64,000 nt of DNA from NCBI RefSeq assembly GCF_000381525.1, contig NZ_KB906606.1, forward strand, positions 5,376-69,375, written 5' to 3'. Within the stretch, counting starts at the first letter, position 1. Each line of letters begins with the position of its first letter. Source of the stretch: Peptostreptococcus anaerobius VPI 4330 = DSM 2949. GTDB taxonomy: Bacteria; Bacillota; Clostridia; Peptostreptococcales; Peptostreptococcaceae. Below are positions 2,564 to 7,946 of the stretch, one piece after another. The position numbers and the translations under genes are program-made. The notes under the pieces were generated by a model, which worked only from the letters and a program-made list of their open reading frames with translations, searched no databases and had not been told where the DNA came from.

Positions 2564-3352
2564 ATGATAAAATTTGTAGTGGTAGATATGGATGGTACTT
2601 TTCTTGATGACAACAAGCAAAAGAGTCCAGAATACGAAAGGGTTATAAGGGAGCTATTGAATAAAGGAGTCAAATTCGGCGTAGCTAGTGGTAGACAGAT
2701 GGCTAGCATAAAGAAGGAGTTTCCTACTTTAAAAGATGACATTGTATTTATAGCTGAAAATGGAACTCTAGTAGAATATGAAGGCGAAATAATCCGTGAA
2801 GAATGCATGACAGCTCAGGTTAGAGATATGATATTAGATAAGGTAGAAAAACTTGAAGACAAGAAGACTATATATTGTACTAAAAACTGTACTTATGTAG
2901 ATGACCTATCGCCTGAGTCAATGGAAAACATTAGAAAATACCTTCCAGCATATGAGTATATTGATAGTTTTAGGAACTTAGATTTACTACCACTTAAGAT
3001 ATCTGTATATTCACCAAATGGGCATGACAAGGATATAGAAGAAATATCCGAATTAGTCAGCGATTGGGCCAAGGCTTGTACATCAGGTAATGAATGGTTG
3101 GATATAATTCCTAAGGGTGCAAATAAGGCTACAGGTATAAAGGCAGTAGCAGAAAAAATGGGCATAAGCATGGATGAAATTATGGCCTTTGGTGACGAGA
3201 TGAATGATTTTGAAATGATGACAAGTGTTTATTACTCATATGCAATGGACAATGCTGCTGACGAAATCAAGCAAGTGGCTAGGTTTACAGCTCCTAGCAA
3301 TAATGAATACGGTGTAATACAAGTGATAAAAGAAAGATTTAATATCGACTAA
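2564..3352 (+). CDS. HAD-superfamily Cof-type phosphatase
   Basis: A 262-residue cytosolic hydrolase of the Cof/YbiV-like HAD subgroup, which dephosphorylates sugar phosphates and similar small metabolites. Motif I is DMDGTFLD (residues 8-15; the first Asp is the nucleophile). Motif II is VASGRQ. The motif III lysine lies in NKATGIKAV. Motif IV is FGDEMNDFEMM. The large cap between motifs II and III is the C2 type. A good RBS (AGGAGG) lies six bases before the ATG. The amidase homologue follows 33 bp later, probably in one transcript. The substrate cannot be read from sequence. Confidence 0.9.
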   Translation: MIKFVVVDMDGTFLDDNKQKSPEYERVIRELLNKGVKFGVASGRQMASIKKEFPTLKDDIVFIAENGTLVEYEGEIIREECMTAQVRDMILDKVEKLEDKKTIYCTKNCTYVDDLSPESMENIRKYLPAYEYIDSFRNLDLLPLKISVYSPNGHDKDIEEISELVSDWAKACTSGNEWLDIIPKGANKATGIKAVAEKMGISMDEIMAFGDEMNDFEMMTSVYYSYAMDNAADEIKQVARFTAPSNNEYGVIQVIKERFNID

Positions 3353-3385: not shown

Positions 3386-4372
3386 ATGGCGAAAAGAAAG
3401 AGGATTAATAAGAAAAAGCTTATATTTGTAATTCTTGTACTTGTCTTTGTTTTATATTTAGTATTTAGGATAATATCTGGCATAGGCAACTTTATAGAAA
3501 AGAAGAGGAATCCAGAACCAATACCAAGGGTTAAAACTGCAGAGGAAATACAAGAGGAAGAAAATAGAAAAATAAATATAATAATTGATCCTGCCAAGGG
3601 TGGTAAAGAAAAAGGCTTGGTTGGCTTCAGGGGAAGTCAATATGAAAAAGACTTGAATTTAGATATAGCCAAGTTGGTTGAAGCTAATTTATCAAAGCAT
3701 TCAGATGTAAATGTTAAATTAACTCGTAGTTATGACAACTCAATGACCACTGCGGAGAGGGTTAAGTTTGCAAAGAAAAACAAGGGTGATATCTTGGTAT
3801 CTATCAGGATAAATGCCCAAGGTGGCAGCAACGAAGCGAGTGGTATGGATGTATACTATTCAAACCCAAACTCTGCATCAATAGCCCAAAAGTCTATTAT
3901 CGATGAGGAAAATCAAAAAAATAATAGCCAATCTAATAATGGCAAAGTTGCAGATAAATCTTCAGACAAGATAAATGATAAAAATTCCGATGACAAATAC
4001 GGTCAAAAATCTACAGACAAAGATAAGGATATAGGTGACAACAAGGGTCAGGATGATAAGACTGGTGATACCAAAAATAATGTAAGGCAAGAATTGTCTA
4101 AGTCTATGGCGGAGCAAATACAGTCTACCAGCCTATCTTTTGTACAATTTAAAGACAGGGGCATTAGAGAGGCTACATATGATATACTTGGGTATGCCGA
4201 GATGCCATCTGTAATTGTCCATACAGGTTTTATTACCAACAAGGAAGACGTAGAGATATTAGAGACCCCATCTACAAGGGAAGAATTGGCCAATGGAATA
4301 AGTGAGGGTATATTGAGGTTTATAGATCAAAACCGTAAAAACATAATAAAAGACAGGATAAATTTTAGATAG
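3386..4372 (+). CDS. Membrane-anchored Amidase_3 homologue lacking its catalytic residues
   Basis: A 328-residue protein with a basic N-terminus, one membrane helix (about residues 12-30) and an N-acetylmuramoyl-L-alanine amidase (Amidase_3) fold. Active members have zinc-binding His in DPGHGG, Glu in EKD, His in SxHxN and a catalytic Glu in the VExGFxxN motif. Here the sites read DPAKGG (Lys71), YEKD (Glu87 kept), SIRIN (Arg141) and VIVHTGFITN (His279). Two zinc ligands and the catalytic Glu are therefore replaced. A Lys/Asp/Asn/Ser-rich insert of about 60 residues (about 175-235) interrupts the domain. It is probably a non-catalytic cell-wall-binding or regulatory protein. The reading frame is intact, so it is not a decayed gene. 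Confidence 0.85.
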   Translation: MAKRKRINKKKLIFVILVLVFVLYLVFRIISGIGNFIEKKRNPEPIPRVKTAEEIQEEENRKINIIIDPAKGGKEKGLVGFRGSQYEKDLNLDIAKLVEANLSKHSDVNVKLTRSYDNSMTTAERVKFAKKNKGDILVSIRINAQGGSNEASGMDVYYSNPNSASIAQKSIIDEENQKNNSQSNNGKVADKSSDKINDKNSDDKYGQKSTDKDKDIGDNKGQDDKTGDTKNNVRQELSKSMAEQIQSTSLSFVQFKDRGIREATYDILGYAEMPSVIVHTGFITNKEDVEILETPSTREELANGISEGILRFIDQNRKNIIKDRINFR

Positions 4373-4535: not shown

Positions 4536-4799
4536 ATGGAAAAGAATGTAACAATAATCAATGAAACTGGTCTACATGCAAGACCTGCAAGTATGTTTGT
4601 AAAGAAGGCATCAGAATTTAAGTCAAGTGTTGAATTGATACACAATGGCGAAAAGGTAAACGCTAAGTCAATAATGGGTATAATGAAGCTTGGACTAGCT
4701 AAGGGTACAGAAGTGACAATAGTAACTAATGGTGAAGACGAAGAACTAGCACTAAACTCAATGGTAGAATTAGTTGAAAACGGTTTCGGTGAAAAATAG
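4536..4799 (+). CDS. ptsH: Phosphocarrier protein HPr
   Basis: An 87-residue cytosolic PTS carrier passing phosphate from enzyme I to sugar-specific IIA domains. The active-site His14 sits in GLHARPAS. The regulatory Ser45 sits in NAKSIMGIM, the site modified by HPr kinase in firmicutes, so catabolite control via CcpA is expected. Length and motifs are typical. GGAGG lies seven bases before the ATG. ptsI follows 153 bp later, beyond a terminator-like hairpin that should make HPr transcripts more abundant than enzyme I transcripts. Confidence 0.97.
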   Translation: MEKNVTIINETGLHARPASMFVKKASEFKSSVELIHNGEKVNAKSIMGIMKLGLAKGTEVTIVTNGEDEELALNSMVELVENGFGEK

Positions 4800-4807
4800 T
4801 CTATTAT

Positions 4808-4841
4808 GGATGTCAGGAGTTAGTCTCTTGGCATCTTTTTT
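4808..4841 (+). terminator. Hairpin and T-tract between ptsH and ptsI
   Basis: GATGTCA pairs with TGGCATC (one G-T pair), extended inside by GAG/CTC, and is followed by TTTTTT. It fits a factor-independent terminator or attenuator after ptsH. Confidence 0.75.
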
Positions 4842-4952
4842 ATGGATAGTTATTATTCGTAAATACTGATTATTAGGTGAACTGTTTAATGGGGTCATAT
4901 ATAGTTTTATAATTATGGAGATTGACCCTTGCTTAAATTGGAGGAATTGATT

Positions 4953-6668
4953 ATGGAAATAAAAGGTATAGGAGCATCTCCTGGTATAGCTATAGGTAAG
5001 GCACTTGTTTTAGAGCACAAGGAGATGGTAATTGAAAAGAAAGAAAATGTAAATGTAGAAGTAGAAGTTGAAAAGCTAAACTCTGCTGTAGATACATCAA
5101 AAAAAGAATTAAGTGCTGTCAAGGAAAAGGTAGCCAAGGAATTAGGGGAAGAAGAAGCTGAAATATTCGGTGCCCATCTATTGGTTCTAGAAGACCCTGA
5201 ATTCATAGGAGAGGCAGAAAACAAGATAAAGAATGAATCATTAAATGCTGAGTATGCCTTAAATGAAGTAAAGGATATGTTCGTTTCTATATTCGAGTCA
5301 ATGGATAATGACTACATGAGGGAAAGGGCAGCCGATGTAAAGGACGTAACGAATAGGGTTCTTAGACATATACTAGGCATTAAGATAATAGACCTTTCAA
5401 ACCTAAGTGATGAGGTAGTTCTAATAGCCCATGACCTTACACCATCTGATACAGCGACTATGGACAAGAAAAAAGTTCTAGGATTCCTAACAAATATAGG
5501 TGGTAGAACATCTCACACTGCTATAATGTCTAGGACACTAGAAATACCTGCTATAGTTGGTCTAAGTGATGTCACTGACAAGGTTAAGGATTCAGATATG
5601 ATAGTATTTGATGGAGACAAGGGTATTGTAATTGTCAGCCCAGAAGAAGATGTTGTAGCTGAATACCAGGAAAAGAAGAGAATATTTGAAGAAGATAAAA
5701 AGGCTCTTGAATTATTAAAGGGTCAGCCATCTGTAACAACTGATAAAAAGCACGTTGAACTAGCTGGTAATATAGGTACACCAAACGACCTTGAAGGTCT
5801 AATCAACAATGACGCAGAGGGTGTTGGACTATACAGAACAGAATTCTTATATATGGATAGTGATGAATTCCCAAGTGAAGAAATACAGTTTGAAGCCTAC
5901 AAGAAGGTTCTTGAAGGTATGAAAGGAAAGCCAGTAGTTATCAGAACACTAGACATAGGTGGAGACAAGAAGCTAAGTTACTTTGAGATGGAAGAGGAAA
6001 TGAATCCATTCCTAGGATACAGGGCTATAAGACTATGCCTAGATAGGACAGATATATTCAAGACTCAGTTAAGGGCCTTATTTAGAGCTTCTGTTTATGG
6101 TAAGTTAAGAATAATGTTCCCTATGATATCTTCACTTGAAGAGCTACTAGCTGCTAAGGCTATATGTGAAGAAGTGAAGTCTGATCTTAAGGCAGAGGGA
6201 TTAGGATATTCAGATGATGTAGAAATAGGTATGATGATAGAGATACCATCAGCAGCTGTAATATCAGATCTACTTGCAAAGCACGTTGATTTCTTCTCAA
6301 TAGGAACAAATGACTTGATCCAGTACACTTGTGCAGTTGACAGAATGAACCAGAAGATATCTTACCTATACAACCAGTTCAATCCAGCAGTTCTAAGACT
6401 TATCAAGATGGTAATCAAGAATGCTCATGCTGAAGGTAAGTGGGTAGGTATGTGCGGTGAGTCAGCTGGAGACCAGATGATGATACCAATACTTCTAGGA
6501 TTTGGACTAGATGAGTTCTCAATGTCACCAATCTCTATATTAAGGGCTAGAAGGCTGATAAACTCAGTATCAGAAAAAGATATGCAGGCTCTTTCTGACA
6601 AGGTGTTAGAATTTGGAACAGCGAAAGAAATAGAAAGTTATATGAAGGACTTTATTGCTAGTAAGTAA
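4953..6668 (+). CDS. ptsI: Phosphoenolpyruvate-protein phosphotransferase (enzyme I)
   Basis: A 571-residue cytosolic enzyme that takes phosphate from PEP and gives it to HPr. The N-terminal domain carries the phosphorylated His in GGRTSHTAIMSR. The C-terminal PEP-binding TIM barrel shows GVGLYRTEFLYM, PVVIRTLDIGGDKK, MIEIPSAA and IGTNDLIQY. The cysteine-containing WVGMCGESAGD site is also present. The frame is open to a TTG at 4929, but the ATG at 4953 is chosen because GGAGG lies seven bases before it and the protein then starts MEIKGIGASPG, as in homologues. Confidence 0.96.
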   Translation: MEIKGIGASPGIAIGKALVLEHKEMVIEKKENVNVEVEVEKLNSAVDTSKKELSAVKEKVAKELGEEEAEIFGAHLLVLEDPEFIGEAENKIKNESLNAEYALNEVKDMFVSIFESMDNDYMRERAADVKDVTNRVLRHILGIKIIDLSNLSDEVVLIAHDLTPSDTATMDKKKVLGFLTNIGGRTSHTAIMSRTLEIPAIVGLSDVTDKVKDSDMIVFDGDKGIVIVSPEEDVVAEYQEKKRIFEEDKKALELLKGQPSVTTDKKHVELAGNIGTPNDLEGLINNDAEGVGLYRTEFLYMDSDEFPSEEIQFEAYKKVLEGMKGKPVVIRTLDIGGDKKLSYFEMEEEMNPFLGYRAIRLCLDRTDIFKTQLRALFRASVYGKLRIMFPMISSLEELLAAKAICEEVKSDLKAEGLGYSDDVEIGMMIEIPSAAVISDLLAKHVDFFSIGTNDLIQYTCAVDRMNQKISYLYNQFNPAVLRLIKMVIKNAHAEGKWVGMCGESAGDQMMIPILLGFGLDEFSMSPISILRARRLINSVSEKDMQALSDKVLEFGTAKEIESYMKDFIASK

Positions 6669-7289
6669 TTAAGTTGAAAAGATAGATTTAAAAGATAACA
6701 AATTATATGTATTGTATTCTAATAAGTTAAGTCAAATATGTATGTATATTTTAGCGTTGGTAGTTATGGGTTTTGCCATAAGGTGAAACTTAGCATACCA
6801 ACGCTATTTTTATGAAGACCAAGATTGGATTTGGTTTTGAGCGATTAATACCAAAATTGTATTTGGTTTTTGGTAATTACTCTTCATCGAAATAAGACGG
6901 GTTGAAAATAAATAGTAGTCATATATATGATAAATGACTTATATATCTTGTCTTTGCGAACATATAAATATGGGTATAATCATAAAAAAGTATTTAAACA
7001 AACTAAAAAACACAATTAGTATATTACATATAAAATAAATGACCTACAAATATAGTGGGACACAAAAAGTACAACTAAAATTTTTTTGGTATTTATATTT
7101 AATAAAATTAACTCAAATTGCCAAATTATCAATATTTACAAAAAATATATGGTGGGACACTTTTGTTTAACGCTTTCCCATATGAAAATATCTTGCTTAA
7201 AGCTATAGACGAGCGCACATAAATATGTTATTATTTAATTGGAAATCAATTTCCTAGATAAAATAAAATATGTGATGGAGGATTTTAGT
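6669..7289. other. 620-bp AT-rich intergenic region with two GTGGGACAC boxes
   Basis: No convincing gene was found between ptsI and the 218-residue unknown protein. Contents: a structured terminator-like element (6752-6812), then about 400 bp of AT-rich DNA. A nine-base direct repeat GTGGGACAC occurs near 7056 and again near 7151, about 95 bp apart, in both cases preceded by A/T-rich ATAT tracts. The second copy lies about 130 bp before the next start codon and could be a regulator site. Nothing else was recognised. Confidence 0.5.
6752..6812 (+). terminator. Two-tier hairpin terminator after ptsI
   Basis: TAGCGTTGGTA (6752-6762) pairs perfectly with TACCAACGCTA (6796-6806), followed by TTTT and TAT. 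Inside the 33-base loop a second hairpin TTATGG/CCATAA is possible. It serves as the ptsI terminator. The large structured loop is unusual and leaves room for a small-RNA role. Confidence 0.7.
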
Positions 7290-7946
7290 ATGTTAGGAGA
7301 TATTGTTAGATATAACTTTTTTGCCTTGGATGAAGCTGATAAGGAAACTTATTCATTAGACTACGCTGTAGTATTGGATATTGATGAAGCGAAGGATGCT
7401 ATAAAGATCCTGCCAATAACTAATAAGTTCTGCAAGGATTCAATAGAATCATTTTGTATAGGACATATACCTGGATTTATGGAGATAAAGAATGAAGGGT
7501 ATGTAAGCAATAAGCAGTATGTTCGTTTTGATAAAATAATGGATGTTCATGAGAGTGAATTGATACCAGTACATATACAGGATGAGTATGGTATGATACA
7601 TAAGAATGACAAGGGAGATGCTATATCTGTAGCCCTTACTGAAGACCAGTTAGAGAAAATAGTTAAGAAATACAGGATATATGAAATAGGAGAAGAGAGG
7701 AATTTAGTAAACTTACTTTACAAGTCAGATGCAAAATTCCAGTTAGCTAAAGATGAATGCGACCTAGATATTATATCAAGAGTCTGCAAAAAAGAAATGC
7801 AGAAATACAGGGAATATAATCATGAAGGAAGAAAAGTAGTAGTATTCTTTGTAGATGGTAATCGTTACTCAGTTATAATGAATGAAACTGACAATCTAGA
7901 TATAGATATGAGAAACAAGGACTTGAAAATGGCCCTAGGTTTCTAA
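7290..7946 (+). CDS. Uncharacterised 218-residue cytosolic protein
   Basis: Not recognised. The frame is open from 7239 (TTG), but GGAGG sits eight bases before the ATG at 7290, giving a protein that starts MLGDIVRYNFF. There is no signal peptide or membrane helix. The first 55 residues (GDIVRYNFF, then YAVVLDID, then IKILPIT) resemble in pattern the beta-barrel start of PemK/MazF-like proteins, but no catalytic residues of that family can be confirmed. The rest is rich in Asp, Glu and Lys, and ends RKVVVFFVDGNRYSVIMNE. The gene stands alone between two terminators, so it is probably a single-gene transcript. Confidence 0.7.
   Translation: MLGDIVRYNFFALDEADKETYSLDYAVVLDIDEAKDAIKILPITNKFCKDSIESFCIGHIPGFMEIKNEGYVSNKQYVRFDKIMDVHESELIPVHIQDEYGMIHKNDKGDAISVALTEDQLEKIVKKYRIYEIGEERNLVNLLYKSDAKFQLAKDECDLDIISRVCKKEMQKYREYNHEGRKVVVFFVDGNRYSVIMNETDNLDIDMRNKDLKMALGF

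Follow-up and report, generated by a model that had tools for sequence, protein, structure and literature searches.

A predicted membrane-anchored Amidase_3 homolog of Peptostreptococcus with replaced zinc and catalytic residues, in an orthologous group marked by repeated losses of such residues

The window, by which we mean the whole stretch of DNA analyzed here, comprises 64,000 nucleotides of Peptostreptococcus anaerobius VPI 4330 = DSM 2949, and all coordinates refer to positions within it. An open reading frame on the forward strand (3386..4372, +) starts with ATG and runs intact for 328 amino acids, in agreement with an earlier sequence-only reading of this DNA that had described the frame as unbroken. 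The encoded protein matches the Pfam Amidase_3 profile (PF01520) over residues 65-310 with a score of 136.9 bits (cut-off 27), and this match alone would label the gene as an N-acetylmuramoyl-L-alanine amidase. In the structure model, a Lys/Arg-rich start is followed by an N-terminal helix with a hydrophobic middle part (residues 9-41; 3410..3508, +). Profile, alignment and fold match delimit the two halves of the Amidase_3 domain (residues 63-160, 3572..3865, +; residues 236-314, 4091..4327, +), between which alignment and model place a charged low-complexity insert of 75 residues (residues 161-235; 3866..4090, +), and alignment reveals a genus-specific tail at the end (4328..4369, +). The conserved gene order identifies a Cof-type HAD phosphatase upstream (2564..3352, +), separated by 33 bases, and two downstream genes (4536..6668, +) that we take, from sequence and recall, to be ptsH (HPr) and ptsI. 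Farther along, a 235-aa protein at positions 7239-7946, relatives of which lie near the locus in 9/9 genomes of the genus, gave no Pfam or NCBIfam match at an E value of 0.001.

Alignment with the PDB entry 4rn7, whose motifs read DPGHGG, YEKDLNL, SIHLNA and LIECGF, gives DPAKGG, YEKDLNL, SIRINA and IVHTGF for the window protein. Lys71 (3596..3598, +) replaces the first zinc His, Arg141 (3806..3808, +) the second, and His279 (4220..4222, +) the catalytic Glu, whereas the zinc Glu is retained as Glu87 (3644..3646, +); active enzymes have His, Glu, His and Glu at these sites. The window protein consequently has neither the His/Glu/His zinc ligands nor the catalytic Glu of an active amidase. The sequence-only reading had named the same four residues, which the alignment bears out, and had taken the zinc and catalytic residues to be lost; this stands for Lys71, Arg141 and His279, which leaves one of the four sites, Glu87, unchanged and three lost, as the earlier list itself implies. 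An alternative alignment restoring a His/Glu/His site, which that reading had set as its refutation, fails for want of histidines, since the protein contains only two (105 and 279), with His105 as the one spare, and no Cys. An alternative zinc site was also rejected at the level of the genus, where His105 occurs in 5/9 members, His279 in 6/9 and Cys280 in 6/9, with no candidate pair common to all.

As a yardstick we used CwlD of C. difficile, for which the available part of PMC8496864 reports that changes at His49, Glu65 or Glu199 each abolished function. These residues correspond to positions 71, 87 and 279 of the window protein by their offset from both ends of a structural alignment of residues 62..316 of our model to residues 40..236 of CwlD. 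The window protein is not itself a CwlD, and membership was rejected on the CwlD profile TIGR02883, on which it scored 81.4 bits against a curated cut-off of 221.55. We regard it as very improbable that the protein is still an enzyme working by metal-free or different chemistry in the same pocket: Glu87 is retained, as are 33 of the 43 conserved domain positions, and some so-called pseudoenzymes prove active by other routes, but neither zinc His nor the catalytic Glu survives, and the residue at 279 is His in some members of the genus and Gln in others. The single changes that kill CwlD function at three of these positions, as excerpted from PMC8496864, likewise argue against residual catalysis.

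An AlphaFold2 model built from 26 sequences reached a pLDDT of 83.7, with 200/328 residues at or above 90 and residues 185-224 below 50. Its best PDB match was 4rn7 (Z 30.1, rmsd 1.4, 186 residues aligned; Foldseek E 9.3e-19), and the titles of the first 24 fold matches all denote amidases or the amidase domains of endolysins (for one, the protein name YrvJ does so), after which the 25th dropped to Z 11.1. A model from five genus sequences only was poor (pLDDT 61.5), and amidases still ranked at the top, with 4rn7 at Z 16.9, rmsd 2.8 and 182 residues aligned. Profile and predicted fold thus agree on membership in the Amidase_3 fold, and the structure prediction, which the sequence-only reading had put forward as a check, supports its view that the fold motifs around the sites are intact. 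Its charged low-complexity insert reappears as the low-confidence region of the model. The insert presumably occupies the position at which AmiA/B/C bear an inhibitory insert; additional residues are likewise found there in amidases from other phyla.

The membrane anchoring claimed in the same reading is backed by prediction, in that the helix of residues 9-41 is a predicted membrane anchor with a probable outward topology of the domain. This bears on the possibility, in our judgment scarcely probable, that the protein is a cytoplasmic regulator of precursor synthesis. Such a role has a precedent in the mycobacterial CwlM, described in the available part of PMC4946905 as an Amidase_3 homolog with degenerate His/Arg zinc ligands and retained acidic residues that activates MurA, and as a cytoplasmic, phosphorylated protein. 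However, the window protein has a 33-residue N-terminal helix after its Lys/Arg-rich start, which probably points outward, and a helix of that type is also found in intact-site orthologs; CwlM is itself cytoplasmic according to the same source (PMC4946905), a contrast drawn from localization.

Sequence, tree and gene order identify the window gene as the ortholog of C. difficile CD2761 (PDB 4RN7). The order LCP - HAD - amidase - HPr - PtsI holds at 8/9 loci of the genus, G002 being without HPr and PtsI there, and recurs, interrupted by additional genes, in several other genera. The ortholog in the g17 genome G024 (locus L172) is near-identical to 4rn7, at 366.6 bits. In a tree of 58 rows, computed with the site and insert columns left out, without one truncated row (G074) and rooted on G023, in whose extracted stretch none of the other neighbors occurs, the genus forms a single clade within the family, with 100/100 support.

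A pseudoamidase ortholog with an open frame is present in 9/9 Peptostreptococcus genomes, representing nine species; searching genome contigs with the single protein found no relative, but an alignment-based search did, and its four best named matches were Peptostreptococcus records. Position 71 is Lys in 8/9 and Arg in 1/9, Glu87 and Arg141 are found in 9/9, and position 279 is His in 6/9 and Gln in 3/9, so that the comparison with active amidases and with orthologs in relatives, proposed in the sequence-only reading, finds the residues lost throughout the genus. A sequencing error or private mutation was rejected, given the same kind of substitution in 9/9 species and codons that vary synonymously at the sites. 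The insert measures 41-89 aa in the nine genus rows against 3-13 aa in the other 50 ortholog rows, and both its sequence and its length are poorly conserved within the genus. The tail is present in 8/9 members, ending in DRINFR in the window protein and reading DRINYR or DRVNYR in seven, and is absent in G006.

The domain is under purifying selection, as measured in one species pair, the closest (G002 and G007), where the domain counts are 18.7 non-synonymous and 29.3 synonymous differences (pN/pS 0.17, Fisher p 2.4e-10), with values of 0.32 for the insert and 0.31 for the N-terminus; the eight codon comparisons that involve the window protein either reached or approached saturation or could not be computed. 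Among 33 intact orthologs, 43 domain positions reach a conservation of at least 95%, and the genus retains 33 of these in at least 8/9 species. The ten changed (70, 71, 75, 99, 141, 155, 252, 277, 279 and 307) include the sites of H71, H141 and E279, and losses concentrate on the four sites only a little more than chance would predict (p 0.034, a post hoc test). Mean pairwise domain identity over the genus is 56.4% for the pseudoamidase (nine genomes) and 70.5% for an intact-site paralog (nine), compared with 68.6% for LCP (nine), 58.9% for HAD (nine), 79.9% for PtsI (eight) and 86.6% for HPr (eight). This quicker evolution than in the intact-site paralog also fits relaxed constraint, although the HAD neighbor stands at a similar 58.9%. 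A change in domain charge as a sign of new binding was rejected, since the pI of 4.6-5.7 in the nine genus rows does not differ clearly from the 4.8-5.8 of eight of the 33 intact rows.

These data also bear on whether the gene is a remnant in slow decay, left with copies drifting once sporulation was lost and the amidase no longer needed. The available part of PMC3789822 places the CD2761 gene under sigmaE control in C. difficile. Both sigmaE and Spo0A fall under the cut-off in 9/9 Peptostreptococcus genomes, and the faster evolution relative to the paralog points the same way. Nevertheless, we judge decay improbable: the frame is open in 9/9 species at this level of divergence, pN/pS is low, the lost sites hold the same chemical kinds in 9/9, and the catalytic Glu is also missing in g9 and g14, two genera with sigmaE scores above the cut-off. 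Pseudoenzyme status, in contrast, is well supported by the residues, their genus-wide conservation, purifying selection and the fold prediction, as the sequence-only reading had proposed, while the peptidoglycan-binding or amidase-regulating role that it suggested stands as an inference; the orthology to CD2761, the fixation in the genus and the recurrence of such losses in this gene go beyond that reading.

The 59 ortholog rows comprise 34 that read HEHE at the four sites, one that is truncated and 24 that are degenerate. Metaclostridioides mangenotii (L058) offers an example of an ortholog whose site is intact. The degenerate rows cover Peptostreptococcus (9/9), g9 (4/4, all CEHQ) and g14 (6/6, with H, D or R, then EHQ), together with five single genomes: G020 (HEQE), G025 (REQK), G030 (HEHQ), G077 (HEHK) and G078 (HEEE). 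On the tree, at least seven changes between intact and degenerate states are required; besides Peptostreptococcus, six further lineages lost such residues, namely g9 and g14 together and the five single-genome cases, which are weaker because each rests on one genome. Among the conserved positions, g9 is altered at 75, 252 and 277 besides 71 and 279, and g14 also at 99 and 155, plus 75 in one of six. The orthology of the g14 genes rests on sequence, on the tree (96/82 with g9) and on a common Amidase_6 neighbor, LCP, HAD and HPr not being found in the g14 stretches taken. A survey of 80 named loci from many phyla found the four Peptostreptococcus loci degenerate and 72 of the 76 others HEHE, with the fourth site unaligned in L108, L111, L115 and L123 and L105 (HEHE) read in two pieces. 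These loci were gathered by two patterns, and since one fixes the Glu87 motif, the survey is silent on loss of Glu87, while the other, by asking for Lys or Arg at 71, favors Peptostreptococcus itself.

SigmaE exceeds the cut-off in 54/71 family genomes, including g9 (4/4) and g14 (6/6), and in 0/9 Peptostreptococcus genomes. Since all g9 and g14 genomes are over this cut-off, yet without the catalytic Glu, and since g23 is under it, yet HEHE in 2/3, loss of sporulation was rejected as a full account, and loss of catalysis is not simply a matter of sporulation loss. In g14 (L196-L201) and g9 (L174-L177), the catalytic Glu is replaced by Gln in 10/10 genomes, with the zinc triad complete in 4/6 g14 rows and Cys in place of the first His in 4/4 g9 rows, so these proteins are possibly dead but metal-binding amidases, to judge from their residues. 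In both genera, a short Amidase_6 protein of about 175 aa is encoded immediately upstream of the degenerate amidase (L196:6257-6781; G016:C1:2479463-2479939), and this gene also lies a few kb off in several genera with an intact-site amidase. As a partner it was rejected: it is near some intact orthologs and absent in G000, and therefore does not track the loss.

An amidase paralog with HEHE, its domains read by eye, occurs in 9/9 Peptostreptococcus genomes, and the cutting role may therefore be covered elsewhere. A third amidase of the window's genome (L003) is read as endolysin-like, and G007 and G002 have a further Amidase_3 protein (L049 and L051), the aligned stretch of which starts past the first His. 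A CamA homolog lies just 3' of the pseudoamidase in 4/9 genus genomes (L155, L158, L161 and L162), survives in G002 as a remnant of 131 aa and is absent in four genomes, including that of the window, where ptsH follows at 4536. The CamA-like protein of G001 (P. canis) matches 7lni/8cxz at about 1e-114; we take these entries to be CamA, the orphan DNA adenine methyltransferase of C. difficile.

The presence of intact-site amidases, among them one of about 620 aa, is relevant to a role as a pure protein-protein module, one that would switch on or restrain an amidase or another hydrolase without touching peptidoglycan, in the manner of EnvC on AmiA/AmiB, a reading we consider unlikely but worth serious attention. 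Amidase_3 enzymes are known to be controlled by partners, EnvC, NlpD, ActS, ActH and GerS being those named in the portion of PMC8496864 at hand. The same portion reports that the Glu199-to-Ala change of CwlD leaves GerS binding at the wild-type level (PMC8496864); since this catalytic-Glu mutant keeps its partner, a dead Amidase_3 domain is still capable of protein work. The genus-specific insert and tail could serve as partner surfaces, and an intact-site amidase is at hand in 9/9 genomes. However, no obvious partner is kept beside the gene among the 16 loci whose neighbors were inspected, and the insert is poorly conserved in sequence and length.

The reading we prefer, and consider reasonably probable, is that of a membrane-anchored, dead Amidase_3 protein of CD2761-type descent that binds the wall or a partner without cutting. 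The cutting residues are lost and the gene is nevertheless kept under selection, which is why the protein probably binds or regulates. Its ancestor would have been a zinc protein of the CD2761 type, in which the zinc and catalytic residues were replaced and the predicted fold kept. The N-terminal helix would anchor the protein so that the domain lies outside the membrane, and the old groove of the domain would still accommodate peptidoglycan stem peptides or a wall protein. Lys71 and Arg141 around Glu87 would supply the positive charge formerly provided by zinc, and the position of Glu87 between them suggests a putative salt bridge in place of the metal. Bond hydrolysis would be impossible for such a docked domain, which would act by binding, whether it senses the wall, serves as a tether or regulates an active hydrolase or synthase. 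A broader and more tentative proposal, which we regard as plausible though short of probable, is that the essential job of the CD2761 group is membrane-tethered binding of peptidoglycan or a partner in intact-site members as well, that catalysis was shed up to seven times, and that Peptostreptococcus may represent the end state, with two cationic side chains around a Glu replacing zinc and a disordered charged arm beside the groove. The natural series HEHE, HEHQ, CEHQ, REQK and KERH lends itself to the question of which functions other than cutting an amidase has, and suggests looking for a non-catalytic role of CD2761 in C. difficile.

Searching by title and the beginning of abstracts, and hence with mentions inside a text still possible, we found no paper on a Peptostreptococcus pseudoamidase and no inactive Amidase_3 protein other than CwlM. 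Among known systems, the closest is CD2761 itself, the top PDB match by sequence and by fold, with the same gene order and, as seen in L172 of g17, the same type of N-terminal helix. L172 reads HEHE and has neither long insert nor tail, whereas the window protein reads KERH and carries the 75-residue insert and the tail; CD2761 binds zinc, according to the available part of PMC8496864, whereas the zinc residues of the window protein are replaced. In the CwlD-GerS and LytH-ActH pairs, a partner controls an Amidase_3 domain, and the model matches these in fold (7rag: Z 25.8, rmsd 1.7, 180 aligned; 7tj4: Z 26.2, rmsd 1.5, 172 aligned); CwlD and LytH, unlike the window protein, are the active enzymes of their pairs. 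EnvC-type activators have a LytM fold. The likeness to them is that of an inactive relative of wall hydrolases, which in EnvC controls amidases, as stated in the available part of PMC4946905; unlike the window protein, they are of the LytM and not the Amidase_3 fold, and amidase activation is a feature of EnvC. CwlM, which we compare by its description rather than its sequence, is similar in that zinc His are replaced, Arg is among the replacements and acidic residues are kept, and differs in being cytoplasmic and phosphorylated (PMC4946905, in the part available), whereas the window protein has a predicted membrane anchor. Against this cytoplasmic precedent, what is new here is a pseudoamidase that is predicted to be membrane-anchored, is probably extracytoplasmic and is fixed in a human-associated genus, a state reached repeatedly in one orthologous gene.
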